Positions 8,319 to 50,198 of a DNA stretch of 64,000 bases are shown one piece after another. The notes under the pieces were generated by a model that was given only the letters and a program-made list of their open reading frames with translations, did no database searches and was not told the origin of the DNA. This DNA is from Aquitalea aquatica (GTDB lineage Bacteria; Pseudomonadota; Gammaproteobacteria; Burkholderiales; Chromobacteriaceae), in assembly GCF_013911085.1 (NCBI RefSeq), contig NZ_JACERN010000022.1, positions 124,001 to 188,000 of the forward strand, given 5' to 3'. The translations under genes were made by a program, and so were the position numbers. Numbering within the stretch: the first letter of the stretch is position 1; each line of letters opens with the position of its first letter.

Positions 8319-8371
8319 GGCAGCATTGTTGCCTGATCAGCTGTTCAGTGTGAATGGAAGCCCTATCCCGG

Positions 8372-9511
8372 ATGACACGCCTTGCCATTGTTCGTCAAAA
8401 ATATAACCCCGCTGGTGGTGCCGAGCGTTTTGTCAGCCGTGCCCTGCAGGCGCTGACCCAACAGCACGCGCTGAGCGTTTCCCTGATTGCGCGCAATTGG
8501 GAAAAGCTGGAAGGCATTGCCGAATGTCGGGTCAACCCTTTCTATTTGGGTAACCTGTGGCGTGACTGGGGGTTTGCATGGTCGGCGCGGCGGCGTTGGC
8601 AGCAGGAAGGCTTTGACCTGGTCCAGTCGCATGAGCGCATTCCTGGTTGCCATATTTTCCGTGCCGGCGATGGCGTGCATCGTCATTGGCTGCAACTGCG
8701 CCGTCAGCATCTGGGCTGGTTCGGGCGCCTGTCGCTACTGCTGAATCCCTATCACCACTATGTGCAATATGCTGAAAAAGCCATGTTTCAGCATCCGGAC
8801 TTGCGTCTGGTGGTGTGTAATTCGCACATGGTGAAACAAGAAGTACAACAGTATTTCGGCTTGCCCGATCAGCGTTTCGCCGTCGTTTACAATGGCGTCG
8901 ACACGGCTCAGTTTCATCCGGAGTTGCAGCAGCAGTATCGTGCCGCCATGAGAAAGCAGCATGACATTCCGGCAGCGGCACCGGTCATGCTATATGTTGG
9001 CTCCGGTTTCGAGCGTAAGGGCGTGGCCAGGGCGCTGCAGGTGCTGCAGCAATTCCCCGAAATTTATCTGCTTGTGGTTGGCGGTGATAAGCATGCAGCC
9101 CGTTATCACGCACTGGCTGAGCGTCTGGGGATGAAGGCGCGGGTGCGTTTTACCGGGGCGCAAGGAGATGTAAAACCGTTTTACGGGATGGCGGATGCCT
9201 TTATATTGCCCACGCTGTATGATCCCTTCCCCAATGTGTGTGTCGAAGCCATGGCAGCGGGCCTGCCAGTGTTTACCACGACCACCTGCGGCAGTGCCGA
9301 ATTTCTGACCAATGGCCGTAATGGTTGGGTCGCCGCTGTTGATGACCTGCAGGGGTGGCATGACGGGGTGGCATATTGGCTGCAGCATCAACAGGACTGG
9401 CCTGCCTGGTGTCAGCAGGCGCGTCAGGCGGTAGAGGGGCTGACCCTGCCCGCCATGACTGATGTCATGTTGCAACAATATGAAAAACTCCTTGCCGCGC
9501 ACACGTCTTGA
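8372..9511 (+). CDS. Family 4 glycosyltransferase, WaaG-like LPS core enzyme
   Basis: A retaining GT-B glycosyltransferase of 379 residues. The N-terminus MTRLAIVRQKYNPAGGAERF resembles WaaG, which adds the first glucose to heptose II of the LPS inner core. The C-terminal donor-binding half contains LYVGSGFERKGVARAL and the acidic motif DPFPNVCVEAMAAGLPV typical of GT4. I prefer the ATG at 8372, with GGAAG about 10 nt upstream, over an in-frame ATG 18 bases earlier. It is the first gene of the LPS cluster, after the ptsI terminator. The family is sure; the exact sugar and acceptor are not. Confidence 0.88.
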   Translation: MTRLAIVRQKYNPAGGAERFVSRALQALTQQHALSVSLIARNWEKLEGIAECRVNPFYLGNLWRDWGFAWSARRRWQQEGFDLVQSHERIPGCHIFRAGDGVHRHWLQLRRQHLGWFGRLSLLLNPYHHYVQYAEKAMFQHPDLRLVVCNSHMVKQEVQQYFGLPDQRFAVVYNGVDTAQFHPELQQQYRAAMRKQHDIPAAAPVMLYVGSGFERKGVARALQVLQQFPEIYLLVVGGDKHAARYHALAERLGMKARVRFTGAQGDVKPFYGMADAFILPTLYDPFPNVCVEAMAAGLPVFTTTTCGSAEFLTNGRNGWVAAVDDLQGWHDGVAYWLQHQQDWPAWCQQARQAVEGLTLPAMTDVMLQQYEKLLAAHTS

Positions 9512-9563
9512 ACTGTGCCTGATTACCTTGTTGCAAGGCGCAAGCGAATGATTTTCTTACTGC

Positions 9564-10655
9564 ATGAGTGAAATGCTAAACGACTCCATCGATCTGAACC
9601 AGGTACGGCGCGTCTTGGTCATCAAACTGCGCCATCATGGGGATGTCCTGCTGACTTCTCCGGTTTTTGCCGCGCTCAAACAGCAGGCTCCGCATCTGGA
9701 AATCGATGCGCTGGTTTACCGTGACACGCAGGAAATGCTCAGCTTGCACCCGGCCATCAGCCAGTTGCACACCATTGATCGCAACTGGAAAAAGCTCGGT
9801 GTATTCGGTCAACTCAAGGCTGAGCTGGGCTTGCTGTCTGTCTTGCGCCAGCGTCACTATGATTTGGTGATTACCCTGACCGAGCACAAGCGCGGCGCCT
9901 GGCTGGTCCGTTTGCTGGCTCCACGCTGGTCGGTGGGGCCCGATGGTCCTTACGGCAAGTTGTTCCGTAAAAGCTTTACCCACCGTTATCTGCAGGTGCC
10001 CGGCAACCGCCGTCATACCATCGAAATCCATCTGGACGCTCTGCGCCGCATCGGTGTCTATCCATCACCCGATCAGCGTGAGCTGACGCTGGTGGCTGGC
10101 CACAATGCAGAGGCGACCCTGGCGGCCAAGCTGGAGCAGCTCGGCTTGTCAGCCGGACAATACATTCTGGTCCACCCCACCTCGCGCTGGCTGTTTAAAA
10201 GCTGGACGGTGCAAAACATGGCTGCGCTGATCAATACCCTGCAGCAACGCGGACTCAAGGTGCTGCTGACTGCCGCACCCAGCCCGGACGAAATGGCCAT
10301 GCTGGGTGATATCCAGTCGCGTCTGACTACCCCTGCCGCCAGCCTGGCGGGGCAGCTCACCCTGAAGGAGCTGGCTGCGGCCATCGACAATGCCCGCTTG
10401 TATATCGGTGTGGATTCGGTGCCCATGCATATTGCCTCCGCGATGAAAACGCCCTGTGTCGCGCTGTTTGGCCCATCGGGTGACATTGAGTGGGGGCCAT
10501 GGCAGGTACCGCACCGGGTGGTGGCTGCCAGCATGTCCTGCCGTCCGTGTGGCAATGCTGGCTGCGGTGGCGGTTGGAAGAGTGAGTGCTTGCAGCAAAT
10601 CAGCCTGGAGCAGGTAATTGCTGCCGTTGAAGGCGTCATGGAGGAGTCCGCATGA
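9564..10655 (+). CDS. waaQ: Heptosyltransferase III-like GT9 protein (WaaQ type)
   Basis: A 363-residue family 9 glycosyltransferase. The N-terminal motif VLVIKLRHHGDVLLTSPVF is the hallmark of WaaQ-type heptosyltransferases, which use ADP-heptose to branch the LPS inner core. The C-terminal half has the nucleotide-sugar site YIGVDSVPMHIASAM and LFGPSG. Four cysteines cluster near the C-terminus (SCRPCGNAGCGGGWKSEC), as often seen in WaaQ. The next gene starts within its stop codon (ATGA overlap), so the two are translationally coupled. The assignment to heptose transfer is from the family; the acceptor is unproven. Confidence 0.87.
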   Translation: MSEMLNDSIDLNQVRRVLVIKLRHHGDVLLTSPVFAALKQQAPHLEIDALVYRDTQEMLSLHPAISQLHTIDRNWKKLGVFGQLKAELGLLSVLRQRHYDLVITLTEHKRGAWLVRLLAPRWSVGPDGPYGKLFRKSFTHRYLQVPGNRRHTIEIHLDALRRIGVYPSPDQRELTLVAGHNAEATLAAKLEQLGLSAGQYILVHPTSRWLFKSWTVQNMAALINTLQQRGLKVLLTAAPSPDEMAMLGDIQSRLTTPAASLAGQLTLKELAAAIDNARLYIGVDSVPMHIASAMKTPCVALFGPSGDIEWGPWQVPHRVVAASMSCRPCGNAGCGGGWKSECLQQISLEQVIAAVEGVMEESA

Positions 10656-11803
10656 AAAAGCAGCGACGACTACCCGGACGCTTGCTGATTTTTGCCGCAC
10701 TGCTGTGCCGTTTACCCTGGCAGTGGTTGCGGCGGCGTCCAGTCGAGGAGGCTGTACAGCGTATTTTGGTGCTGCATCAATTCCTGCTGGGTGATGCCTT
10801 GATGGCCACCAGCCTGCTGGCCAAATTGCGAGAGCGTTATCCCGCCGCCGAGATCATCCTGGCCTGCCCGCAGGGGCAGGTCGGGCTCTATCAAAGCCGT
10901 CCTTACGGTATTACTGCAGTCGGTTGGCATCCACGGGACTTCGCCTCGGTCCGTAAGCTATTTACCATGCCACGCTTCGATCTGGCCTTTCTCAGTGGCG
11001 AGAACCGCTTGTCCTTCCTGGCTCGGGCCATCGGCGCGCGCTGGATTATCGGTTTTGCCGATGAAGCTCCTGCCTATAAGAACTGGCTGGTAGACGAAGC
11101 CATCCCCTACAGTACCACCCCCGAATCCTGGACCGATACCGCAGCCCGGCTGGTGGCGGGACCAGATCCCAAACCGTTCAGTCTTGTCGATTGGCCGCTG
11201 GAGGAAGTCAGCCTGCCGTTTTTCGGCCAACCTTATGTCGTGCTACATGTTGGCGCAAGTTCGCCCACCCGCTACTGGCCTGCGGGCAACTGGCGAGAGC
11301 TGGCTGCATATGTGCGCGCCAGAGGGTTAACGGTGGTCTGGTCGTGCGGCCCCGGAGAAGAGCAGTTGGTGGATGAGATCCAGCCCGCGCCGGACGACGC
11401 GACGATGGCGGGCAGTCTCAATCTGCTGCAATTACGCGCACTGCTGCATGGCGCACGCGCAGCGGTTTGTCCGGATACCGGCGTTGCGCATCTGGCGAAG
11501 ATTGCCGCTGTGCCGCAAGTGATGTTGTTTGGTCCGGGCAGCGAAACCCTGTTCGGTGCCAGCCGTTTTTTCAGCTCCACCCCCTGTCTGGGCGTGGGGC
11601 CAATCTGGTTCCCCTGCCGTATCCAGCGCGACATGCATTACCGCCAGACCGAATGGGCGATGCGTTGTTATCGCACGGTGGGAACCAAGGAAGGACAGTG
11701 TCGCAAGCCGCAATGCATGGCGGTAGTGCAGCCATCGATGGTGCTGCAAGCGCTAGTTCAGTTACTGCCTGAAGAGAATAATTGTAATGACCAAGATATT
11801 TGA
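10652..11803 (+). CDS. Family 9 glycosyltransferase (LPS core)
   Basis: A 383-residue GT9 protein and the second of three in this cluster. After a basic, hydrophobic N-terminal stretch it has the GT9 core start RILVLHQFLLGDALMATSLL and, in the second half, AAVCPDTGVAHLAKIA followed by VMLFGPGSETLFGA. Substrate cannot be told from sequence; transfer of heptose or a related sugar to the LPS core is inferred from family and neighbours. It overlaps the upstream gene by 4 bp and the downstream ligase gene by 17 bp. Confidence 0.84.
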   Translation: MKKQRRLPGRLLIFAALLCRLPWQWLRRRPVEEAVQRILVLHQFLLGDALMATSLLAKLRERYPAAEIILACPQGQVGLYQSRPYGITAVGWHPRDFASVRKLFTMPRFDLAFLSGENRLSFLARAIGARWIIGFADEAPAYKNWLVDEAIPYSTTPESWTDTAARLVAGPDPKPFSLVDWPLEEVSLPFFGQPYVVLHVGASSPTRYWPAGNWRELAAYVRARGLTVVWSCGPGEEQLVDEIQPAPDDATMAGSLNLLQLRALLHGARAAVCPDTGVAHLAKIAAVPQVMLFGPGSETLFGASRFFSSTPCLGVGPIWFPCRIQRDMHYRQTEWAMRCYRTVGTKEGQCRKPQCMAVVQPSMVLQALVQLLPEENNCNDQDI

Positions 11804-13154
11804 ATCAGTGGGTACAGTACGGCGCGTTCCGCTGTATCTGGAAATTATCCTTGTAATGGTGGCAGCCTCACTGATGTTCGTGTGGTCAATGCCCAATCTC
11901 ACCGGATTACGTAATAGCCTGTTGGCGATCAATTTTTTTATCTGCGTTCCATTGGCATGGCCTGTTTTAAAAAATGGCGGATGGCGTCGATTTTTTCCTG
12001 TCTTGCCATTGAAGATATATGTCCTGTTGACATTGTGGATTGTCGTATGCGCATTATTATTTTCCGATAATCGAGTTGTCAGTTTTCATGAAATATGGGG
12101 GCAATGGATACGGAGTGCGCTGGCCGGTGCTATGGGATTGATGTTGGCCTCACTGTCGGTTGGTCACCGTCTGCGTCTTTCTTCCGCGTCCGTATTAACA
12201 GTGCTGATGCTGGCAATTTTTTCGCAAGTCATGCTGCATGATGTAGATATGCTGTGGCAATGGGTAAGAACAGGCACTCTTCCGTTGGGAGAAACCAGAA
12301 TTCTGGAAAGCAGAACGGTTCTTACTTATGTTGTCAATTTGTTGCTGGCCTTTTCTGCAGCAGAGTTGATGGGGCGCATTTTGTTCAATCGACGCTACAT
12401 GCCTTTGCCGGGTATTTTCTTTGTATTTGTCGGAGTGGTTTGTATTTTTGCCTCCTACACCTTGCAAACCAGGAATGGCATGATTGGCACTTTGGCATTG
12501 CTGGTTTCTTGTTCATTACTTTTCTGGTTTGTTAAACGGAAAGCGACAAATAATATACTCGTTGCTAGTCTGGTTCTGCTGGTGTTGTCAGGTGTCACTA
12601 CATTGGGATGGTTTGCTTATAAAGCAGATCCGCGCTGGGGGTCGCTGTTGGAAACCGTACCCATCGCTTGGGATACACAGGGCCATCAAGAGTGGATACA
12701 TCGTCAGTACCCCTTGCTTGCTGATGGGAATCCAGTTAGTGGATCGAATTACGAACGTATTGCTTGGGCAAAAGAAGCACTGCTACAGATCGCACGTGAG
12801 CCGATTGGTGTTGGTTACAATCGCAGTGCATTCGGAGTCGCGTTAAAGAAAATACACCCTGATCTGGTTGAGACAGCACATTCTCATAGTGGAATACTGG
12901 ATTTCACCATTGCCAATGGTATTCCTGGTTTGATTATTTTTATTGCCTTGTTGTGGGTTTGTTTTCAGCAGGGTTTGTTGAGTTTCTTTAAAAATCACTC
13001 TCCACAAGGATTGCTCCTGGCATTTATTGTCACCGGTTTTTTTGGTCGCAGTTTGGTGGATAGTAATATTCGCGATCATATGCTGGAACAATTTGTGTTT
13101 TTGCTTTGTGTAATGCTTGTTTTTTCTCTGGAAAGGGACTCGAGTGAATCCTGA
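11787..13154 (+). CDS. waaL: O-antigen ligase-family membrane protein (WaaL-like)
   Basis: A 455-residue polytopic inner membrane protein with about ten to twelve hydrophobic segments and one large loop (about residues 280-370). Within it are GSNYERIAWAKEALLQIAREP, of the O-antigen ligase/Wzy type, and the histidines of VETAHSHSGILDFTIANG. WaaL joins polymer from an undecaprenyl carrier to lipid A-core. The DNA is visibly AT-richer than its neighbours, with long A and T runs, which suggests a different origin. It overlaps both neighbours. Ligase is the most likely role because it sits among core genes; a polymerase cannot be excluded. Confidence 0.82.
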   Translation: MTKIFESVGTVRRVPLYLEIILVMVAASLMFVWSMPNLTGLRNSLLAINFFICVPLAWPVLKNGGWRRFFPVLPLKIYVLLTLWIVVCALLFSDNRVVSFHEIWGQWIRSALAGAMGLMLASLSVGHRLRLSSASVLTVLMLAIFSQVMLHDVDMLWQWVRTGTLPLGETRILESRTVLTYVVNLLLAFSAAELMGRILFNRRYMPLPGIFFVFVGVVCIFASYTLQTRNGMIGTLALLVSCSLLFWFVKRKATNNILVASLVLLVLSGVTTLGWFAYKADPRWGSLLETVPIAWDTQGHQEWIHRQYPLLADGNPVSGSNYERIAWAKEALLQIAREPIGVGYNRSAFGVALKKIHPDLVETAHSHSGILDFTIANGIPGLIIFIALLWVCFQQGLLSFFKNHSPQGLLLAFIVTGFFGRSLVDSNIRDHMLEQFVFLLCVMLVFSLERDSSES

Positions 13155-14205
13155 AAAAATTCTGGTCATCCGACGGGACAATATTGGTGATCTGGTTTGT
13201 ACTACACCGTTGATTCATGCTCTGAGGACTCGCTTTCCAAAAGCTAGGCTAGATTTGCTGGTGAATAGTTATAATGCTCCGCTTCTGGTGGGGCACCCGG
13301 ATGTCGATCATCTTTATGTTTATACCAAGGCTAAGCATCGTGAAAACGGCGAGAGTGCATTGGGGGTTTACTGGAAACGCCTGCTTCTACTGCTGAAAAT
13401 GCGTCGTACCCGCTATGATGTCGCGGTACTGGCGAATGGGGGATGCATGCCCAGGCCCTTGCGCTGGGCAAAACAGATTGGTGCCTGCCATATCCTCGGT
13501 TTCAGTGAACCGGGAAATCCGCTCGCCAACCAGATCAATTTGCCTGTCGTCAGCCCTGCTCAAGTCATGCACGAGGTAGAGATGTTGATGACTCTGATGC
13601 AGCCGCTGACGGGCGAGATCGTGCCAGCACCAAATCTTTCTTTGGTGGCTGCAGCAGGTCTGGCAGAAGAAATACGTGGAAAATTGCCTGATCTTGCAGG
13701 GAAAAAACTGGTTGGCTTGCATATCAGTGCCCGTAAGCCTAGCCAGCAATGGCCGGCGCAGCGGTTCATCGAGTTGGCACAGGCCATTGCCAAAGATACT
13801 GCGGTTCATCTCATGCTGTTTTGGTCACCGGGTAGTGCCGATAACCCTTTTCATCCAGGGGATGATGAAAAGGCTGCCATGATTATGGAAGGCTGTGCAG
13901 GTTTGCCGCTGACACCTTTGCCAACCCATCAATTGGATGAGTTGATGAGTGGGTTGTCATTGCTTGATGTACTGATCTGCAGTGATGGTGGTGCCATGCA
14001 CGTGGCGGCAGGCCTGGGCAAGCCTATTGTTTGCATGTTTGGCGATAGCGATGTGGCTAAATGGCATCCATGGGGTGTTCCGTATAAGGTTTTGCAGCCG
14101 GCCAGCAGAAATGTTGTCGATCTTTCGGTCGCTGATCTGCTGTCTGCCTATGGGCAATTGGTGGGGCAGGATATCGACCCGGTGCACACGGAAGTTTCTG
14201 CATGA
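13144..14205 (+). CDS. Family 9 glycosyltransferase (LPS heptosyltransferase-like)
   Basis: The third GT9 protein of the cluster, about 353 residues from the GTG at 13144, which has GGAAAGGGA just upstream and gives the family-typical beginning VNPEKILVIRRDNIGDLVCT. An in-frame ATG 27 bases earlier is possible but lies deep in the ligase gene. The second half holds the donor site LICSDGGAMHVAAGLGKP followed by VCMFGDSD. The sugar transferred is unknown. The gene overlaps the ligase gene by 11 bp, and msbA starts in its stop codon (ATGA), so all six LPS genes appear coupled. Confidence 0.86.
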   Translation: MNPEKILVIRRDNIGDLVCTTPLIHALRTRFPKARLDLLVNSYNAPLLVGHPDVDHLYVYTKAKHRENGESALGVYWKRLLLLLKMRRTRYDVAVLANGGCMPRPLRWAKQIGACHILGFSEPGNPLANQINLPVVSPAQVMHEVEMLMTLMQPLTGEIVPAPNLSLVAAAGLAEEIRGKLPDLAGKKLVGLHISARKPSQQWPAQRFIELAQAIAKDTAVHLMLFWSPGSADNPFHPGDDEKAAMIMEGCAGLPLTPLPTHQLDELMSGLSLLDVLICSDGGAMHVAAGLGKPIVCMFGDSDVAKWHPWGVPYKVLQPASRNVVDLSVADLLSAYGQLVGQDIDPVHTEVSA

Positions 14206-15971
14206 GTAAAAGTGACAACTGGAATCACAGCTGGACAACCTATCGTCGCCTGATTCGCTATATTTCGCGGTACTGGAAGGTCTTCGCCCTGTCGTTGGTC
14301 TCGATGACCATCGCCGCCCTGACCGAGCCGGCGTTTGCCCGTCTGATGAAACCGCTGATTGATGGTGGCTTCGTCAACAAAGACCCGCAGGTCATCATCT
14401 GGGTGCCGATGGCCATCATCGGCGTATTCCTGGTGCGTGGCCTCACCAGTTTTATCAACGAGTACACTTCCAGTTGGCTGGCCGGGCATCTGGTGCAGAC
14501 GCTACGGCAGCAGATGTTTGCCAAGATGCTGCGCCTGCCGGTGCAGTACTATGCCGATAATCAGTCGGGTCGACTGGTATCGCGCATTTCATTTGATGTC
14601 AATCAGGTGACCGAGGCCGGCTTCAATGTTATTACCGTCACCGTGAAGGATGGCGTGACGGCAGTCAGTCTGCTGGCCTGGCTGTTGTACATCGACTGGC
14701 AATTGACGCTGATCTGCCTGCTGGTGATGCCGGTGGTGACGGTGTGCATGCGCATCGTGGCCAAGCGCTTGCGCGGTCTGGCACTGGAGAACCAGCAGCA
14801 CATGGCCGATCTGACCCAGATTCTGGGCGAGGGCGTGGACTGTCAAAAAGTAATCAAGGTGTATGGCGGTGAACAATACGAGGAGGCTCGTTTTGATGGC
14901 GCAGCTCAGGCCATTCGCCGTAATGCCGTGAAACAAAGTGCAGCCAGTTCGGCCAATACCGGGGTGACGCAGTTGATGATTGCTTGCGCGCTGGCGGCGA
15001 TCCTGTATTTCGCGGCTTTGCGTGCTCAGCATGGCGCGTTTACCGCAGGTGACTTCATGTCATTTCTTACCGCGATGATGTTGCTGTTTGCACCGGTCAA
15101 ACGCATTACTGGTATCTCGCAGGCTATGCAGCGTGGCCTGGCAGCGGCGGAGAGCGTGTTTGCCTTTCTGGATGAGCCGGGTGAGCCGGATCACGGTAGC
15201 AAGCGTTTGCCGACTACCCAGGGCCGTCTGCGTTTTGAGGATGTCTCGTTTCGTTATCCCAATGCCGAGCGCGTGGTATTGCAGGACATCAACCTGACTG
15301 TCAATTCGGGTGAGACAGTGGCCTTGGTCGGTTCTTCCGGCAGTGGCAAAACCACGCTGGTCAGCCTGATTCCACGCTTCTACGAACCCTTGTCGGGGCA
15401 GATTACCCTGGATGGCATTGCGCTGGCCGATATCGCACTGGCGGACCTGCGCCATCACATCGCCATGGTGAGCCAGGATGTGGTGCTGTTCAATGACAGC
15501 GTGGCCGCCAATATCGCTTATGGCTCCAGCCACCAGGTCAGCCGTGAGCAGATTGTTGAGGCGGCACGGGCGGCCAATGCGCTGGAGTTCATCGAGGCCA
15601 TGCCGCAGGGGCTGGATACGCAGATTGGCGAGAATGGGGTGCGGTTGTCAGGCGGTCAGCGCCAGCGGCTGGCGATTGCCCGTGCACTGCTGAAGAATGC
15701 GCCATTGCTGATTCTGGATGAGGCGACTTCGGCACTGGATACCCAGTCAGAACGGCTGGTGCAGGCGGCTCTGGAGAATCTGATGAAGAACCGTACTACT
15801 ATCGTCATCGCCCACCGCCTGTCTACCATCGAGAGTGCAGATCGCATCATCGTGATGCATCAGGGCCGGGTGGCGGAGCAGGGGAGTCATCAGCAATTGA
15901 TGTCGCAGGATGGCTTGTATGCCCGCCTGCACAGCCTGCAGTTCCGTGAGCCGGAGGCCGGCGCCGCCTGA
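14202..15971 (+). CDS. msbA: Lipid A/LPS export ABC transporter MsbA
   Basis: A 589-residue half transporter with a six-helix membrane domain in the first 320 residues and a C-terminal ATPase. The ATPase shows Walker A (GSSGSGKTT), the ABC signature (RLSGGQRQRLAIARALL) and Walker B (LLILDEATSALD). Length and order match MsbA, which flips core-lipid A across the inner membrane. Its place directly after core glycosyltransferase genes supports that role. It is the last gene of the cluster; a perfect 13-bp hairpin terminator follows. Confidence 0.93.
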   Translation: MSKSDNWNHSWTTYRRLIRYISRYWKVFALSLVSMTIAALTEPAFARLMKPLIDGGFVNKDPQVIIWVPMAIIGVFLVRGLTSFINEYTSSWLAGHLVQTLRQQMFAKMLRLPVQYYADNQSGRLVSRISFDVNQVTEAGFNVITVTVKDGVTAVSLLAWLLYIDWQLTLICLLVMPVVTVCMRIVAKRLRGLALENQQHMADLTQILGEGVDCQKVIKVYGGEQYEEARFDGAAQAIRRNAVKQSAASSANTGVTQLMIACALAAILYFAALRAQHGAFTAGDFMSFLTAMMLLFAPVKRITGISQAMQRGLAAAESVFAFLDEPGEPDHGSKRLPTTQGRLRFEDVSFRYPNAERVVLQDINLTVNSGETVALVGSSGSGKTTLVSLIPRFYEPLSGQITLDGIALADIALADLRHHIAMVSQDVVLFNDSVAANIAYGSSHQVSREQIVEAARAANALEFIEAMPQGLDTQIGENGVRLSGGQRQRLAIARALLKNAPLLILDEATSALDTQSERLVQAALENLMKNRTTIVIAHRLSTIESADRIIVMHQGRVAEQGSHQQLMSQDGLYARLHSLQFREPEAGAA

Positions 15972-42922: not shown

Positions 42923-42953
42923 AAGCGGCTTCCCGTTCGGGGGCCGCTTTTTT
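42923..42953 (+). terminator. Terminator after hisP
   Basis: AAGCGGC pairs with GCCGCTT, with an inner CCCG-TTCG-GGGG hairpin; six T follow. It insulates the SMC-complex operon from the transporter. Confidence 0.88.
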
Positions 42954-42998
42954 CATGTTCTGGTGCGGAGACCGGAGTGGCCAGTCATTCGACATGCG

Positions 42999-43028
42999 TT
43001 GACTTACCCCCGTCCGGCCTTGGACAAT
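42999..43028 (+). promoter_or_regulatory. Candidate promoter of the Mks/Wadjet-like operon
   Basis: TTGACT and GACAAT are separated by 18 bp, placing a start site near 43035, between the hisP terminator and the ATG at 43053. The match is moderate and unverified. Confidence 0.4.
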
Positions 43029-43052
43029 CCGCTTTTGCTTTCTCATGCCGGA

Positions 43053-44336
43053 ATGCCATTGGAATCGCTCGTCGACTTCTTCCAGCCGGGCATCGCGCCG
43101 GATTCGCTGTCCGGCGTCAATCGCCTGCAACAAGCCTGGCCTTATCTATCTGTCTTCGTCACTCTGTTTCGTGGTGGTGACGAGGAGGTGCTGATGCGCC
43201 TGTTGGTGCTGCGCGAACTGGGTGGCCGCGCCGATGCCCCGCGCTGGACGCCGCAGGAAATCGCCCAGCGCTTTGCCTATCTCAACGACACCAAGCTGGC
43301 CACCATTCTGGGCCGGCTGCGCGAGGGCGAGTTGCTGGTGTATGACAGCGACGGCGGCCAGTACCAGCTGTCCGAAGGCGCCCGCGTGGCGCTGGCGGCG
43401 CTGGCCACCTTGATCGACTTTGCCGGTGACGATGTCGAGCTGGGCTATCTCACCAGCCAGGTGGCTGCCGGACAGGCGGTGGGGCAGTTGTCCGATGACG
43501 CCCTCAAGCACTTGCTGGCGCGGCTGAACGAGCTGTACGGCGAGTTTGAAGAAGCACTGGAATCGCAATCGGAATTCCGCATCCGCGCTGCCCAGCACCG
43601 GCTGGAAGCGGTGTGGCGCTGGGTGGCCAAATCGACCGAAGTCATCCGCAGCCTCACCGCCGACGACACCCTCAGCCTGTCTGCGCTGAATCAGGCCCAG
43701 GCCATCGCGCTGGCGCAAAGCCGCATGCTGGCGCTGGCCGGCACCTTCGAGCGCCGTCTGGCGCAGCTGGCGGCGCAGCGGGTGCATCTGGGCAGCTCCG
43801 GCCTCACCTCTACCGATATTGCCGACTGGCTGCGCCGTCAGGCGGTGGGCCAACTGGCCGATCAACTCAGCGGCTGCCTGTCCATCAACCCGGAACCGGC
43901 CTTTATTGCCACGCCGGAGCTGGCCGACATGGCGGAATTCGAACTGCTGGCGCGCGAACGCGCCAAGGCTGGCAATACTGCCTTGCCCGGCAGCGTGGCC
44001 GCCCCGCTATCCGGCGAGCTGGAAGTGGAGCGCCTGTTTGCCGCCGAAGCCATGTACGACGAGCTGCTGACACTGGGCCTGCAACTGGGCGAGAGCGGGG
44101 CCGACCACATCCCCATCCAGCAGGCGGTGCTGGCCGACAGCTACAACGAAACGGCTTATCGCCTGTCGCTGCTGTCGCTGATTGGCGATCCGGAAAGTCA
44201 TGGCGATGCCAGCATCGTGGCTGCGCTGGCCAAATTGCCGTTCACCCTGCACGGCGGCGAAGCCGTGATTGAACCCGAACACCCGGAAGTGGCCACGCTG
44301 TCTGATGCGCGCCTGCTTCCCCATACCCCGAATTAA
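43053..44336 (+). CDS. Kleisin-like subunit of an MksF/JetA-type SMC complex
   Basis: About 427 residues from the ATG at 43053 (MPLESLVDFFQPGIAPD); the frame is also open from a GTG at 42963, which would add 30 residues lying upstream of the candidate promoter. The first 110 residues form a winged-helix-like domain (TPQEIAQRFAYLNDTKLATILGRL split across helices and wing), long helices follow, and the last 60 residues look like a second winged helix. This matches the layout of MksF/JetA kleisins, which bridge the ATPase heads. I did not see a motif that is diagnostic by itself; the call rests on order, size and the unmistakable SMC gene two genes downstream. Confidence 0.78.
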   Translation: MPLESLVDFFQPGIAPDSLSGVNRLQQAWPYLSVFVTLFRGGDEEVLMRLLVLRELGGRADAPRWTPQEIAQRFAYLNDTKLATILGRLREGELLVYDSDGGQYQLSEGARVALAALATLIDFAGDDVELGYLTSQVAAGQAVGQLSDDALKHLLARLNELYGEFEEALESQSEFRIRAAQHRLEAVWRWVAKSTEVIRSLTADDTLSLSALNQAQAIALAQSRMLALAGTFERRLAQLAAQRVHLGSSGLTSTDIADWLRRQAVGQLADQLSGCLSINPEPAFIATPELADMAEFELLARERAKAGNTALPGSVAAPLSGELEVERLFAAEAMYDELLTLGLQLGESGADHIPIQQAVLADSYNETAYRLSLLSLIGDPESHGDASIVAALAKLPFTLHGGEAVIEPEHPEVATLSDARLLPHTPN

Positions 44337-44339
44337 TCC

Positions 44340-45131
44340 ATGGAACAGCAACTGAAAACCCTCACCGCCCGCCTGCTGGCCCAGCGTGTGGTACCGCGCA
44401 GCGATGCGCTGGCGCGCAAGGCGCTGCTGGATGACATTTTCCGCCAGGAGCTGGACAAACGGCTGGCCGATGTCGGCCTGCGCCTAGTGGAGAACCCCTA
44501 CGCCGAATACATCGCCGTCGCCCTGCTGCCGGAAATGACCGAACCGGTATTTGGCAGCGGCGAGGCCTGGCTCAACAATAATCTGGGGCTGCCGCGCGAT
44601 GGTGTGGCGCTGCTGGTGATCCTGTGGGCGCTGATCATCCTGCCCAAGCGCGAACGGCAGATTGCCCGCGTGGAAGCCGGGCGCGAAAACCAGAGCGATA
44701 TGTTTGGCGCACAAAAGCCGCTGGAAACCGGCGAGGGCGTGTCCACTGGTGTGTCGGAAGACGCGCTGTATGCTGATTTTGGCAAGGCGCTGGGCGGGCG
44801 TACCCGCTTCAATGCCAATCTGGGCCGCTTGGTGAACCTGGGCTTTGTGGTGCGCCGTAACAAGTGGCTGGACGAAGGCCCGATGCTGGATCTGATGATT
44901 GATTACAGCCAGCTGGCCCCGCGCATCATCGAGGGTGCCTTGTCCGAGGTGCTGACCCAGCGCCGCGAGCAGGCCGCTGGTGCACTGGCCGACAAGACCG
45001 CCAGCGCCATTGCCCTGGCGGTGGCGCAGCCGGCGGTGAGCGCCGATGGCTCCAGCCTGTTTGCTGACACTGCAGGCCCTGAAGATGCGGCAGATGACAC
45101 GTCTGCCCCCGCGCAAGAGGAAGACCGCTGA
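44340..45131 (+). CDS. KITE-like subunit of an MksE/JetB-type SMC complex
   Basis: A 263-residue, mostly helical soluble protein. The first 100 residues (including LVENPYAEYIAVALLPEMTE followed by LVILWALIILPKRERQ) and the segment FNANLGRLVNLGFVVRRNKW look like the tandem winged helices of MksE/JetB subunits that bind the kleisin. The C-terminal 60 residues are Ala- and acid-rich, probably disordered. It begins 3 bp after the kleisin-like gene and its stop overlaps the ATPase start by one base, so the three are tightly coupled. The role is inferred from position and fold features. Confidence 0.76.
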   Translation: MEQQLKTLTARLLAQRVVPRSDALARKALLDDIFRQELDKRLADVGLRLVENPYAEYIAVALLPEMTEPVFGSGEAWLNNNLGLPRDGVALLVILWALIILPKRERQIARVEAGRENQSDMFGAQKPLETGEGVSTGVSEDALYADFGKALGGRTRFNANLGRLVNLGFVVRRNKWLDEGPMLDLMIDYSQLAPRIIEGALSEVLTQRREQAAGALADKTASAIALAVAQPAVSADGSSLFADTAGPEDAADDTSAPAQEEDR

Positions 45132-47950
45132 TGTTCCAGATGAAATCGGTAGAAATGGTGCACTGGGACTTCTGGCAGCGTTTGTCGGTGCCGCTGGACG
45201 CGCAGATTGTCACCATCATCGGCCCCAATGGTTCGGGCAAGACCACGCTGCTGGACGCCATGCGCACCCTGCTGGCCATCAAGTGTTCCGGCAAGCGCGA
45301 TTACAAGCGTTACGTGCGCAACAACCGCGAGCCCTTTGCCTATCTGCGCGGCGTGGTGGATAACCCGCGTCGCCCATCTGGCGGGCTGTATCCCACCCCG
45401 TTTTTTCCCATTGTCAGTGATGCCGTTACCCTGCTGTGCCGCATCAAGAAGCAGGGTGGCGACTGGGTGCGCCATTACGCCATTCTGGATGGCGATGTGC
45501 CGCTGGAACTGGCCGAAGCGCAGGCGCAGTGGCTGGGCGTGCAGGAATACCGCCGCCGCCTGGAAGTGGCCGGCCTCACCCCGGCGGTGGGCGAGGTGCT
45601 GGCGCTGGAGCAGGGCGATACCGACAAGCTCACCGAATACAGCCCGCGCCAGCTGCTGGACCTGGTGTTTCAGGTGTTTGGCGACAAGGATGTGCTGGAC
45701 AACTACCAGCGCGCCCGCGACGAGCAGCGCGCCACCGAGCTGGAACTGGAAGCGCTGACCCGGCAGGAAGAAGCACTGGAAGTGCGCGTGGAAACCATGA
45801 AAACCCGCGCCGGGCGCTTCCTGGAGTGGCGGCAATTGCAGCAGACCATCAGCCGTCTGCAAGACGAAGCCTTGCCGGTACTGGGCTATCTGGATGGCAA
45901 GAACGCGCTGGGCCAGACCTGGCAACACTACCGCGCCGCCTATGGCCAGCTTAGCCGTACCCGGCGCGAGCACCACGACACCCTGCAGCTGGTGGCCAAG
46001 CTCAAGGCGGCCGAAGTAGCCGCTGCCGAGGCCCGCGCTGCCGCAGAGCATGCCCGGGTGCAGGTGCAGGAGCAGTTCATGGCGGCCAAGGCCGAGCATG
46101 CCAGCGTCAGCGGCCAGCTGAAAGAGCGCGATCGCCTGCAGGCGCTGGCCAGCCGTGAATACGGGGCCGATGCCGCTGCGCTGTCCGACAAGCTGGCTGG
46201 CTTGCGCGGCGAGGCCGAGCAGCTCAAAGATGGGCTGCGTGATTTGAACCGCCAGCGTATCGATCTGAAAAATCATGTCGAGGCACTGGAAATCGGCCGT
46301 GGCCGTTCGCCGGAAGAAGTACGCCAGTTCAAGGCCGCGCTGGATGAGGCAAATATCGGCCACGCCATGCTGTCCGACATCATCGAGGTGATGGACGCCG
46401 GTTGGCAGGGCGCGGTGGAAGCCATGCTGCGCCCTTACCGCCATGTGGTATTGCTGGAGAATCCGCAGCAAAAGGGCGAAGCCTGGCGCCTGGGCGAAAA
46501 ACTGCGTTTCCGCCATTTCGTGGTGCCGGAGCGCAGCAGCCCGCCGGCCGCACGCAAGGGCAGCCTGCTGGAAGTGATCCGCTTTTCCGCCAATGCCCCA
46601 GACTGGCTGTATCAGCAGCTGAACAAGGTCAGCCGGGTGGAAAATGCCCAGGCCGGGGCAGGCGTCGATGGCGACTGGATTACCCGCGACGGTTACTTCC
46701 GCGAACGGCGTGGTGCGCGCCATATCGGCGTGGCAGCACATGAGTTTGCCTTTGGCGAAGGCGCCCGCCAGTCGCGCCTGCTGGCGCTGCGCGATGAGCT
46801 GAAGCAGCTGAATGTGCGCATTCTGGCCGATGAAGAACAACTGGTGGCCATTACCCGCGAAGCGGCTGGCCTGGCCGAATACCTGGGCGGCATGGATGCC
46901 ATCCGCCAGCTGGATAGCCGTGCCGAAGAATTCGCCGCACTGGCCACCCGTCTGGCCAGCCTGCAACAGCAACAGCAGGAACTGGGCGCACAGCTGGCCG
47001 AAGCCAGCAGCACCAAGGATGCGGCGGATCAGCGTTATGGTGATGCCCGGCTGGAGCACGACCGCATCTGCCAGCGCGAACAGGAAAGCCTGTCGCGTTA
47101 CGACGGCAAGCGCCAGGAGGTGGAAAACCACCGCCGTCAGCTGCGCCGCCTGCTGGCCGAGTTGCGCGAATGGGCCACGCGCCTGCCGGCTGATGCCTTG
47201 GCCGCCGAGCATGTGGCCGCGCTGGAAGACGAGTACGAAAGTGCCGCCGATGCGCGCCATCAGCTGAATTATCTGCAAGAGCGGCTGCAAGGTGGCGAAT
47301 GGGAAACCGACGAGTCGGTACTGGCGCTGCGCGACAAGCTGGCCGACGATCTGACGCAGATCGACCGCGAACGGCAGCGCCGCCAGAGCGAGGTTGACCG
47401 CTCGCGTGAACTCACCGACGACGCCCGCGCCGCCTATATGGGCAAGCTGCGCGCCACGGTGCGCGCCTATGGTGCCAATATCAAGCGTCTGGGCGAACTG
47501 GCCGGCATCGGTGTGGATGTGGAATTGCCGACACTGGAAAACGACGACGCCGCGCTGGCGCAGGCCGGGCTGACGCTGCGCTTCAACTTCGACCAGAAGG
47601 GCATGATGGGCATGAACGATGGCGAAGCCTCCGGCGGTCAGCAGGTGATGAAGTCGCTGATCTTGCTGATCGGCCTGATGATGGACGAGGCCAATCCTTC
47701 CGGCTTCGTGTTTATCGACGAGCCTTTCGCCCACCTGGACATTTTCAACATCGACCGGGTGGCCGGTTTCCTCAAGGCGACCGAAGCGCAGTACCTGATC
47801 ACTACGCCCAACACCCATAACATTAATATCTTCGCGCCGTCGGAACTGACGCTGGCCACCCGCAAGAAGCGGCCGGGCGAGCAGTGGGCTCCGCCCATCC
47901 TGCAAACCCGCCGCCGGGTAGATGCACCGCAGTCCGACCCGCAGGTCTGA
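45131..47950 (+). CDS. SMC-type ATPase, MksB/JetC-like
   Basis: A 939-residue SMC-like ATPase. Walker A GPNGSGKT is at residues 31-38. A first coiled coil covers about 180-350; a globular hinge-like region spans about 355-530 (LSDIIEVMDAGWQGAVEAML onward); a second coiled coil follows to about 790. The C-terminal head has the signature SGGQ at 834-837 and Walker B FVFIDEPFAHLD with Asp863-Glu864. In MksB/JetC proteins ATP-driven loop extrusion condenses DNA, or in Wadjet systems detects small circles. The arms are short for a Wadjet JetC (about 1100 residues in described examples, from memory) and closer to MksB. No key residue is missing. Confidence 0.9.
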   Translation: MFQMKSVEMVHWDFWQRLSVPLDAQIVTIIGPNGSGKTTLLDAMRTLLAIKCSGKRDYKRYVRNNREPFAYLRGVVDNPRRPSGGLYPTPFFPIVSDAVTLLCRIKKQGGDWVRHYAILDGDVPLELAEAQAQWLGVQEYRRRLEVAGLTPAVGEVLALEQGDTDKLTEYSPRQLLDLVFQVFGDKDVLDNYQRARDEQRATELELEALTRQEEALEVRVETMKTRAGRFLEWRQLQQTISRLQDEALPVLGYLDGKNALGQTWQHYRAAYGQLSRTRREHHDTLQLVAKLKAAEVAAAEARAAAEHARVQVQEQFMAAKAEHASVSGQLKERDRLQALASREYGADAAALSDKLAGLRGEAEQLKDGLRDLNRQRIDLKNHVEALEIGRGRSPEEVRQFKAALDEANIGHAMLSDIIEVMDAGWQGAVEAMLRPYRHVVLLENPQQKGEAWRLGEKLRFRHFVVPERSSPPAARKGSLLEVIRFSANAPDWLYQQLNKVSRVENAQAGAGVDGDWITRDGYFRERRGARHIGVAAHEFAFGEGARQSRLLALRDELKQLNVRILADEEQLVAITREAAGLAEYLGGMDAIRQLDSRAEEFAALATRLASLQQQQQELGAQLAEASSTKDAADQRYGDARLEHDRICQREQESLSRYDGKRQEVENHRRQLRRLLAELREWATRLPADALAAEHVAALEDEYESAADARHQLNYLQERLQGGEWETDESVLALRDKLADDLTQIDRERQRRQSEVDRSRELTDDARAAYMGKLRATVRAYGANIKRLGELAGIGVDVELPTLENDDAALAQAGLTLRFNFDQKGMMGMNDGEASGGQQVMKSLILLIGLMMDEANPSGFVFIDEPFAHLDIFNIDRVAGFLKATEAQYLITTPNTHNINIFAPSELTLATRKKRPGEQWAPPILQTRRRVDAPQSDPQV

Positions 47951-47957
47951 TGTTGCT

Positions 47958-47987
47958 GCCGGACGGGGAAACTTGTTTCCGTCCGGC
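47958..47987 (+). promoter_or_regulatory. Strong hairpin between the SMC and Toprim genes
   Basis: GCCGGAC pairs with GTCCGGC, and inside GGAAA pairs with TTTCC, leaving a 2-nt bulge and a small loop. It lies 8 nt after the ATPase stop and 35 nt before the Toprim gene start. No T-tract follows, so it may protect the upstream mRNA or attenuate the downstream gene rather than terminate fully. Confidence 0.55.
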
Positions 47988-48022
47988 GGTCTACTCTTTT
48001 CACCCTTCACTGGCAGAACCCC

Positions 48023-49252
48023 ATGTCCAGCTGGCTTGCCCGTATTTCCCCGGAACTGGTCGAACGTTTTCCCATTGGTGCCCGCGGCCACCATCTGCTG
48101 TTGCAACCTACGCTCGCCCCCACACCGCTGCTGTTGCCGCAGGCCGACCAGGCCCTGCTGCAGCGCTGGCTGGCCTTGCGCGTGATGCGCCAGCGCTGGA
48201 CCAGCTTGCTGGGGCAGGGCAGTGATGCGGCGCAAGCGGAAGACCTGCTGCGGCGCTTGCTGGAATGCGGCTGGTGCGAGGTGGAGCTGCATGCCGAGCC
48301 GGGCCGGCTCGGCCAGTGGGAGCCGTTTTGGGTTAGCTGGCGCGAGGTCTACCAGCTGCGCAGCCTGATCGGTCTGCCGGATGCCGACGCACGCGACGAA
48401 GTCGTGCAACTGTGGCGCGGCTGGCAGCCGCAGAACGGCATCCTGCAAGGCCTGGCCGACAGCCTGGCCCAGCGCCTGCAATCCTCCACACTGGAGCGGC
48501 GGCTGAAAATTGCCCAGGCACTGGATGGCTGGCTATCGGCCGGACTGTGGGGCACCGAGCGCCAGTTTTCGCAATATGCACTGGGGCGCAGCAAGGCTTT
48601 TGGCGAGGCCGACCGGCGCTGGCTGGCCGAGTTTGGCATTGCGCTGGAGGCTTGCGGCATCTCGCGCCATACCCCGCATGTGTTTTTGTCTGGCCCGCTG
48701 GAACTCTATGCCGGAGGTCAGCTGCTGCTGTCGGCCGGGCTGTTGCAAAGCGGGCTGGCGCTGGCACCAGAAGCGTTGCAGCAAGTAGATGCGGTACGTG
48801 GCGTGGTGCAGATGGTGCGCATCGTGGAAAACCTCAGCGTGTTCGAGGTACTGACCCGGCAGGCCGAACCGGTGCTCACCATCTGGGTGCCCGGTTATCC
48901 ACACCGGCGCTGGCTGCAGGCGGTGGGCCATCTGCTGGCGGTATTGCACTTGCCGGTGCAGGTGGCCTGTGACCTGGACCCGGCTGGTGTAGCCATCGCC
49001 CTGCAGGTGGGCGAGCTGGCCGGGCAGGCGGGCTGCGCCTGGCAGCCCTGGCACATGCAGGCGGACGAACTGACATTGGCGCATGGTGGCCAGCCCTTGA
49101 AAGAGGAAGACCAGCAGGCACTGGCCAGGCTGGCCCGGCTGCCGCTGCCACCCATGCTGGCTGATCTGTGCGCCGCCATGCTGGAGCGCCAGCTCAAGGT
49201 GGAGCAGGAGGCGTTGTTCATCGGCCACTGCGACGAGGGGCAGGCTGGCTGA
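48023..49252 (+). CDS. Toprim nuclease-like subunit, MksG/JetD type
   Basis: A 409-residue protein. The C-terminal 150 residues carry a Toprim-like core: glutamate in [12 protein letters not shown] (Glu269), a central [15 protein letters not shown] strand-turn, and the acidic pair in [13 protein letters not shown] (Asp317, Asp319). This is the catalytic pattern of JetD/MksG proteins, which nick or cut DNA captured by the SMC complex. The N-terminal 220 residues are helical and should contain the arm and winged-helix region. Unlike the three upstream genes it is not overlapping: 72 bp with a hairpin separate it, and I see no clear ribosome-binding site before the ATG. Catalytic residues appear intact. 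Confidence 0.83.
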
Positions 49253-49334
49253 GCATGGCCGTGCCTGCAAAGCGGATGACAGAACCGAGCGCTTGCTTGA
49301 TAATCATCGGCACTGCATCTTGAGCGGAGCAACC

Positions 49335-50198
49335 ATGCGTACCCTGACTTCCCTGCTTGGCAATTCCCAGAAACTGGACGGCGGCGCCATGTTCGGCAAT
49401 GCGCCGCGCGCCATGTGGAGCCAGTGGCTGGCCCCGGACGAGCAACACCGGGTGCCGCTGGCCTGTCGCTGCCTGCTGGTGCGCGAGGAAGATGGCCGGC
49501 GCATTCTGCTGGAGGCCGGTATCGGCGCCTTTTTTGCCCCGGAGCTGAAAACCCGCTACGGTGTGGTGGAAGACGGCCATGTGCTGCTGGACAATCTGGC
49601 GGCCGCCGGTAGCAGCCACGAAGATATCGATGTGGTCATCCTGTCTCACCTGCATTTTGATCATGTCGGCGGCCTGCTGGCCGCCTGGGATGGTGGCCCG
49701 GCGCGGCTGCTGTTTCCCAAGGCGCAGTTCGTGGTCAGCCGCACTGCCTGGCAGCGTGCCAAGGAGCCGCATGCCCGCGACCGCGCCTCCTTCATTCCCG
49801 AACTGATTACCCTGCTGGAAAACAGTGGCCGGCTGGTGCTGACCGATGGCGAAACGCCAGACTGCCTGCCGGTGGATTACCGCTTTCACCTGAGCGATGG
49901 CCATACCCCTGGCATGCTGTTGACCGAAATTCCGCTGGGCGAAGGCCCGGTGCTGTATGCCGCCGACCTTATCCCCGGCGCGTCCTGGATGCATGTGCCC
50001 ATCACCATGGGTTACGACCGGTTTCCGGAACAGCTGATCGATGAAAAGCGTGGTTTGCTGGATGACTTGCTGGCCCGACAAGGACGGTTATTCTTCACGC
50101 ATGATCCGCAACACGCGCTGGCCCGCGTGGCGCGTGATGGCAAAGGGCGGTTTCACGCTGCCGATGCGCTGGCACGGCTGACGGCGCTGGCCAGCTGA
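49335..50198 (+). CDS. MBL-fold metallohydrolase
   Basis: A 287-residue metallo-beta-lactamase-fold hydrolase. The metal-binding motif is [13 protein letters not shown]; further metal ligands are in [10 protein letters not shown] and FFTHDPQH near the C-terminus. The family includes lactonases, phosphodiesterases and thiol-ester hydrolases, so the substrate is open. The ATG at 49335 has GGAG a few bases upstream and gives the typical length. It starts 82 bp after the Toprim gene in the same direction; there is no terminator between, but a functional link is not shown. Confidence 0.88.

Follow-up and report, generated by a model that had tools for sequence, protein, structure and literature searches.

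Does an operon that joins a putative DNA-looping motor to a putative DNA-cutting partner serve to destroy plasmids, to organise the chromosome, or both? The question is raised by four co-directional genes, in the order mksF-mksE-mksB-mksG, that occupy positions 43053-49252 of the forward strand in a 64,000-nucleotide stretch (the window) of the 4.46 Mb genome of Aquitalea aquatica, a member of the Chromobacteriaceae. As far as the searched literature and model libraries show, they form a real, resident and previously unclassified variant of the MksBEFG/Wadjet kind. The four-gene operon type itself is already known, and what is new here is a natural series of nuclease decay in which the motor is retained. 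We consider it rather probable that an ancestral plasmid-restriction system lies behind this series, with a core that also serves the chromosome and a nuclease that is dispensable, and that the window contains its intact form.

The motor and the nuclease

A preliminary description of the window, made from its sequence, had proposed an MksFEBG- or Wadjet-like complex containing an SMC ATPase with intact Walker A, SGGQ signature and Walker B, and a Toprim-like protein with Glu and Asp-x-Asp motifs. Closer comparison agrees on each of these points. MksB carries the motifs GPNGSGKT (Walker A), ASGGQ (signature) and FVFIDEPF (Walker B), and in profile comparison it matches type I JetC from the N-terminal head to past the hinge region (residues 2-665, E 8.7e-20). 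Among PADLOC models JetC1 scores highest (8e-22), with its top-scoring stretch, residues 194-739, largely coiled coil. The protein stays below the cut-off of the NCBIfam SMC model (94 bits, cut-off 567), and the host has a separate canonical SMC that scores 984.5 bits. The models for RecF (41 bits, cut-off 172), SbcC_Walker_B (16.6, cut-off 27) and MukB_N (E 0.025) are not reached either. Grouping of the ATPase with RecN, SbcC or RecF, or neighbours from unrelated families, had been named as fatal to the proposal; neither appeared in the Pfam and NCBIfam scans. Judged by its sequence, MksB, which shares 99% identity with the Aquitalea palustris protein, can be regarded as related to JetC, with the ATPase motifs in place.

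MksG has the metal-site residues E268, D317 and D319 on a Toprim-like fold, and a fourth, E396, is assigned by inference. It matches the PADLOC model JetD1 at 1.2e-21 and passes the cut-offs of DUF2399 (6.1e-9) and JetD_C (1.2e-5). Its structure model has a predicted local distance difference test score (pLDDT) of 85, and the 12 PDB matches at E <=0.001 are all topoisomerase VI-A (topo VI-A), Spo11, Corynebacterium glutamicum MksG or Pseudomonas aeruginosa JetD, with template modelling (TM) scores over the whole query that are low, 0.30-0.40. The three residues align with the Glu and DxD of topo VI-A, at a weak score (E 0.29) and with agreement at the level of the motif, and, over the Toprim part only, with the VEN and GDID of type I JetD (E 1.6e-4). 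Sequence and model together point to a JetD/topo VI-A-like Toprim protein.

Repeated loss and decay of MksG

Relatives of the operon were collected at 81 loci, the window's own included, of which 73 come from one scan of a genome collection. The kleisin gene has a relative in 76 and the KITE gene in 80, whereas MksG is found by profile in 26 (18 of the 73 genome-scan loci). Conservation across these loci rules out chance open reading frames.

At the level of whole genomes, MksG is matched in 22 of 61 family members: 14 have a complete gene beside mksB (eight in the host's genus and two each in Pseudogulbenkiania, Crenobacter and Chromobacterium), five, all Chromobacterium, have a complete gene elsewhere, two have orphans without MksB, and one has a remnant. 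Among the 51 genomes with MksB, 31 have no MksG match, including G026, which is 84% complete and has a cut mksB. A further 39 genomes, some of them chosen for having MksG, yielded 33 without a match and six with one, a remnant in one of the six.

Damage to MksG is seen in seven lineages, and the forms that were met are arranged in Table 1. The orphan genes of G014 and G018 adjoin EamA and a decarboxylase-like gene, and neither genome matches MksB or the kleisin; with shared flanks and missing motor genes, they speak for an ancestral mksG at the same locus. The five relocated Chromobacterium genes (L088-L092) lie at a second locus with no mksFEB adjoining.

Table 1. Forms of MksG encountered, from intact metal site to absence
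Stage	Form of MksG	Where found
a	E, D, D present	window, Aquitalea, G066, G071, Silvimonas, Thiobacillus, Gallionella, G450 (E396 unreadable in G450)
b	E268Q	Pseudogulbenkiania (L024, L062)
c	E268Q and D319S	Crenobacter (L034, L037)
d	D319A	four of five relocated Chromobacterium genes (L089-L092); the fifth, L088, is intact
e	D317A/D319S	orphan mksG in G014 (L093)
f	E268S with stops	orphan mksG in G018 (L094)
g	C-terminal remnants directly 3' of mksB	G065 (L085, 46 codons); Thiobacillus sp. 65-1402 (L079, 34 codons)
h	no MksG trace	

A sensitive scan in six frames covered as much as 3 kb beyond mksB, less where a stretch was shorter, in 81 stretches with 65 distinct mksB reading frames. It recovered two remnants only, which scored 32.3 and 28.2 bits, and none of the 20 codon-shuffles made of each stretch scored above 12.1. 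A hidden, divergent toprim gene downstream of mksB in the nuclease-less loci is rejected as far as these and the neighbour scans tested it. The neighbours scanned after mksB there are genes for RlmL-type methyltransferases, a symporter, an M48 peptidase, a chloride channel, a HAD hydrolase and an ankyrin protein; the downstream reading frames of L012, L018, L021 and L027 and one of L030 have no Pfam match.

In a tree of MksG (29 rows, careful method) the deep groups are those of the MksB tree, and several long branches are flagged. Parsimony on the MksB tree requires at least nine changes for the presence of MksG and at least seven between an intact and an altered or absent metal site; a loss-only count, without adjustment for branch support, gives 20 events. 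MksG has been lost or damaged repeatedly while the motor was kept.

Retention of the motor

The three ATPase motifs are intact in all 68 full-length MksB proteins (67 distinct), five of the 73 having been dropped as cut or out of frame. This holds for the 19 whose fetched stretch also contains MksG as for the 49 whose stretch does not; among the latter, MksG lies elsewhere in L014, L015, L016 and L019, and a contig end truncates L067. Pairwise ratios of nonsynonymous to synonymous substitution rates (dN/dS) for mksB lie between 0.02 and 0.20 in the pairs compared, and between 0.02 and 0.16 in the eight pairs without an adjacent nuclease. MksB is under purifying selection, with or without MksG.

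In each pair compared, mksG evolves faster than mksB, with dN/dS of 0.05-0.34: the values are 0.05-0.09 in Aquitalea and 0.18-0.34 for the intact genes of Thiobacillus and Gallionella. Pairs that share an altered metal site give 0.27 (Pseudogulbenkiania), 0.22 (Crenobacter) and 0.12 and 0.14 (L089/L092 and L090/L091); both partners share the alteration, so these estimates include time after the change. Constraint thus extends to some of the MksG proteins whose metal site is altered.

Residence and distribution

The locus can be taken as resident in the chromosome, as its gene order within the Chromobacteriaceae and the MksB tree, which runs broadly along taxonomy, agree. MksB is matched in 51 of the 61 family genomes. 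Its tree (84 rows, quick method) has 33 changes of genus label, where the minimum is 27 and shuffled labels average 61; the rows outside their named genus are L021, L026 and L058. To the left of the operon lies an amino-acid ATP-binding cassette (ABC) transporter, set apart from mksFEB by a terminator-like hairpin and common to the Aquitalea and Chromobacterium stretches that were looked at. To the right, a metallo-beta-lactamase-fold gene follows, and the genes on this side (metallo-hydrolase, EamA, HisC and a decarboxylase-like gene, which we take to be carboxymuconolactone-decarboxylase-like) recur in Aquitalea and Vogesella and partly in Crenobacter and Pseudogulbenkiania. The guanine-plus-cytosine (GC) content is 0.64-0.66 in bins 44001-50000 and 0.47-0.63 across the remaining window bins, and the earlier remark that composition matches the host holds. 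As to the accompanying remark that no mobile gene lies nearby, the flanks are ordinary and common to several related genomes; no search aimed at mobile elements was made.

Within the collection searched, mobile DNA seldom carries a copy: three of 72,556 plasmid records match MksB, none over 80% of the protein. In the Variovorax plasmids NZ_LR594663.1 (L137 3997-9618) and NZ_LR594690.1 (L138 3342-8963), a C-terminal half of mksB adjoins an IS1071 transposase gene and is followed by an MksG relative and exodeoxyribonuclease VII genes; the second of these plasmids, NZ_LR594690.1, also has a match to an N-terminal half at another place. A sample of 369 genomes of the class, with two candidates scored per genome, gave one relative outside the order, G450. 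As a guide to pseudomonads PF11839 was unspecific (110 of 369), and the two families followed from this lead gave a match in none of 38 and one of 237, the latter partial (residues 257-546); the 14 control genomes include no Pseudomonas. Among the open-access matches listed there was no paper on MksFEBG or Wadjet in Chromobacteriaceae, most subscription papers and all bioRxiv preprints lying outside the scope, and none of the open-access papers covered pairs 'Wadjet' with 'Chromobacterium'.

Kleisin, KITE and class

The identities of the first two proteins come from gene position plus weak evidence, and the kleisin is the weakest part of the operon's identification. MksF matches no family in Pfam, NCBIfam or PADLOC (PADLOC at E 0.01), and a PDB profile search gave no match. 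Across 28 members no Pfam family was matched by more than six (best E 0.0026, unrelated names). Its structure model is moderate (pLDDT 74). In the fold search, MukF/MukBEF entries stand at ranks 1, 2, 3 and 6 (E 0.016-0.08, TM-scores 0.14-0.18), interleaved with winged-helix regulators of similar score. The comparison with the type I JetA profile is suggestive at most (E 0.0063, probability 6; mismatched control JetC 0.22). MksE matches DUF4194 under the cut-off (E 0.0025) and JetB1 at E 0.036, six of 22 relatives matching JetB1 with a best value of 0.0038; profile comparison with type I JetB gave no match (E 0.29). Of the winged-helix kleisin-like and KITE-like genes proposed earlier, the first stands in the kleisin position, and both assignments are suggested by position together with these low scores.

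In three Paludibacterium-type loci (L025, L041, L116) the kleisin gene lies away from mksEB, elsewhere in the same genome. Loss of the kleisin is rejected for them, and they indicate that the operon can be split with its core subunits retained. Some Chitinibacteraceae have an extra gene of about 216-229 amino acids between the kleisin and KITE genes (Table 2). It has no Pfam match in the two scanned and one NCBIfam match only (E 0.066) in the four scanned, and is a possible accessory subunit.

The suggestion of a distinct subtype has gained ground: DUF3375 is absent, no PADLOC kleisin model matches, DUF4194 stays under its cut-off and the SMC protein is about 200 amino acids shorter than type I JetC. 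By its sequence the operon is filed as an unclassified variant of the MksBEFG/Wadjet kind and not as type I Wadjet, because DUF3375 is absent and the kleisin is without any family model. Type I Wadjet (JetABCD/EptABCD; for example E. coli GF4-3 and P. aeruginosa PA14) has the same order of kleisin, KITE, SMC and Toprim genes, its JetC aligns with MksB as described above, and the Toprim Glu and DxD are in common. It differs in its DUF3375 kleisin; this domain, which marks the type I JetA kleisin, was not found in the window's MksF, the host or 20 relatives, with a positive C. glutamicum control. In twelve regions fetched from genomes of the class, with lengths taken from the first start codon, the reading frame in the SMC position has 1119-1159 amino acids in four type I loci (L146-L149) and 1150-1223 in six others, as against 939 for the window's MksB. 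The DxD stands in CDLDPAG in the window's MksG and in YWGDIDTWG in type I. PADLOC includes JetA2 and JetA3 kleisin models, and a kleisin of types II or III was not found among its matches to MksF at E 0.01.

The four-subunit layout is shared with C. glutamicum MksBEFG, whose MksG (8b7f) ranks fifth in the fold search with the window's MksG (E 5.4e-9, at a low TM-score of 0.31) and whose kleisin, unlike the window's, belongs to DUF3375. In P. aeruginosa PAO1, MksBEF is reported to be kept beside Smc-ScpAB (PMC7485682), and the window's host likewise has a separate SMC. The PAO1 system, here likened by description and not by sequence, is without a nuclease according to a review (PMC10586767); MksG is present in the window, which thus departs from that three-subunit layout. 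MukBEF has in common with the window the weak MukF hints in the fold of the kleisin; the sub-threshold MukB_N match and the presence of a Toprim subunit set the window apart.

Layout of the operon

The frame of mksF can also be opened at a GTG at 42963, giving a reading frame of 457 amino acids (42963-44336). This start is probably too early, because relatives in a 28-row alignment begin near the ATG at 43053. The mksE gene starts four bases past the end of mksF, and the start of mksB overlaps the mksE stop. The start of mksG lies 72 bases past the mksB stop, and a 74-nt spacer between the two genes has a predicted folding free energy of -29.7 kcal/mol (z -3.7). All five Aquitalea spacers are predicted to form hairpins (z -2.0 to -4.3) with unlike arm sequences, which suggests that the nuclease may be expressed at a low level, perhaps below that of the motor. 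T-rich hairpins also occur in the mksB-mksG spacers of two Pseudogulbenkiania. Apart from the spacer hairpin, inverted repeats around the operon were unremarkable.

Elsewhere in the window, 8354-15971 holds a cell-surface glycan cluster with glycosyltransferases, an O-antigen-ligase-like gene and an ABC exporter. The bin over the ligase-like gene (12001-14000) has a GC content of 0.474 against 0.55-0.66 elsewhere, and this segment was perhaps acquired.

Table 2. Coordinates of the operon, of its putative signals and of the extra gene in related loci
Feature	Position	Strand	Basis
mksF, kleisin-like subunit, 427 aa	43053..44336	+	open reading frame call; 28-row alignment; weak MukF/MukBEF model matches
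mksE, KITE-like subunit, 263 aa	44340..45131	+	open reading frame call; DUF4194 and JetB1 weak
mksB, SMC ATPase, 939 aa	45131..47950	+	motifs; type I JetC profile; PADLOC JetC1
mksG, Toprim nuclease (predicted), 409 aa	48023..49252	+	E268/D317/D319, inferred E396; DUF2399, JetD_C, JetD1
terminator-like hairpin, mksB-mksG spacer	47955..47990	+	pattern match and fold prediction
terminator-like hairpin 3' of upstream amino-acid ABC transporter	42923..42949	+	pattern match
candidate sigma-70-like promoter before mksF ATG, 9/12 matches	42999..43028	+	pattern match only
extra kleisin-KITE gene, Andreprevotia	L045 7563-8252		
extra kleisin-KITE gene, Iodobacter	L055 7296-7955		
extra kleisin-KITE gene, Chitinolyticbacter	L056 7579-8262		
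extra kleisin-KITE gene, Silvimonas terrae	L071 7526-8182		
extra kleisin-KITE gene, Chitinilyticum aquatile	L078 7629-8279		

A probable reading: one motor, two uses

On the reading that we consider rather probable, MksB would form dimers that the kleisin MksF closes and the KITE protein MksE backs, and these would extrude DNA loops using ATP. On a small circular plasmid, extrusion would reach completion and the Toprim nuclease MksG would cut; on the chromosome it would never be complete, and the motor would shape the DNA without a cut. If the motor has its own host function in Chromobacteriaceae, the nuclease would be dispensable, and MksG could time and again change at its metal site, move elsewhere, shrink to a remnant or disappear, with MksFEB remaining under purifying selection. 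The complex would be one motor with two uses and a removable cutter. Gene content, motifs, homology, synteny, repeated MksG damage and constraint are the observations on which this reading is built. Loop extrusion, plasmid cleavage and the chromosomal role are carried over from work on type I Wadjet and on MksBEF of P. aeruginosa: for Wadjet, a dimeric JetABC motor is described as extruding the plasmid, with JetD activated after completed extrusion (PMC12647877), and MksBEF of P. aeruginosa is reported to contribute to chromosome organisation and segregation (PMC10586767, PMC7485682). By this analogy, the cutting partner and the looping motor probably destroy plasmids, and we predict active plasmid restriction and a chromosomal role for the intact form in the window. 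A double role as condensin and in plasmid exclusion is a fair inference, and it is strengthened because the nuclease has repeatedly been lost and the motor retained.

Several points weigh against this reading. MksB of C. glutamicum is described as acting on plasmids alone (PMC10123090), so that a chromosomal role is not general, and in C. necator the removal of a type III Wadjet is reported to have had no plasmid effect under the conditions tested (PMC12645576). Retention of MksFEB without MksG could also mean a defence that does not cleave. Unordered parsimony asks for nine changes only, so some of them could be gains of MksG. Position and a moderate model are the main grounds for calling MksF a kleisin, and none of the eight flanking genes was found (E 1e-20) in those stretches of Paludibacterium, Chitinibacteraceae and Leeia that were inspected.

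A pure plasmid defence, in which MksFEB without MksG would exclude plasmids by loop compaction or with another host nuclease and would have no chromosomal role, is unlikely. It would suit the account of C. glutamicum MksB just cited, which sets action on plasmids against chromosome organisation, and a host that already possesses a canonical SMC. Most defence systems are patchily distributed, whereas MksB is present in most of the family, with flanks common to much of it and a broadly taxonomic tree, and mksB remains under constraint where a pair has no nuclease. Conversely, the complex might have been a nuclease-independent condensin throughout, with MksG as a loosely attached accessory and no restriction of plasmids in the window. 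The faster evolution of mksG, the hairpin that parts it from mksB in Aquitalea and its position at another locus in five Chromobacterium genomes speak for this idea. We regard it as very doubtful, since the Thiobacillus and Gallionella loci and G450 have MksG after mksB with E, D and D, and the two trees agree on deep groups.

The altered forms of MksG can themselves be read in more than one way. They could still be active, the glutamine helping to hold the metal and D319 being inessential, so that no real decay has occurred in the substituted lineages. Their open frames are kept with dN/dS below 1 (0.27, 0.22 and 0.12-0.14), and in topo VI the substitution E342Q, at another residue of the acidic tetrad, is reported to have raised cleavage (PMC13040014). 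Crenobacter, the Chromobacterium haemolyticum group and G014, however, lose an aspartate of the DxD, two lineages have truncated remnants only, and E236A and D279A at the ion site of C. glutamicum MksG are reported to have drastically impaired the nuclease (PMC10123090), all of which makes preserved activity quite improbable. More tentatively entertained, with somewhat less than an even chance, is that MksG of Pseudogulbenkiania, Crenobacter and the C. haemolyticum group is a retained pseudo-nuclease, non-cutting and under purifying selection, for example as a regulatory or DNA-clamping subunit of an MksFEB condensin. This is suggested because dN/dS is below 1 in pairs sharing an altered site. 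These values exceed those of Aquitalea, however, and constraint may be partly relaxed; the intact Thiobacillus and Gallionella genes reach similar figures; glutamine might still support catalysis; and the topo VI substitution cited, at a different tetrad residue, is reported to have increased cleavage.

Implications

A review deems it likely that MksBEF descended from Wadjet by loss of the nuclease, and the passages concerned name no series of intermediates (PMC10586767). The Chromobacteriaceae offer versions of one chromosomal system with the metal site intact or altered and with the nuclease relocated, truncated or missing. Annotation that demands a recognised kleisin would probably miss the system, because the PADLOC, Pfam and NCBIfam scans matched no model to this subunit. 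If the pseudo-nuclease reading is true, a living series would lead from a Wadjet that cuts plasmids, by way of a complex that no longer cuts, to a plain condensin. Many of these related bacteria are cultured environmental species, which makes the Wadjet-to-condensin idea directly testable, and the family provides a natural test of a defence system turning chromosome organiser.

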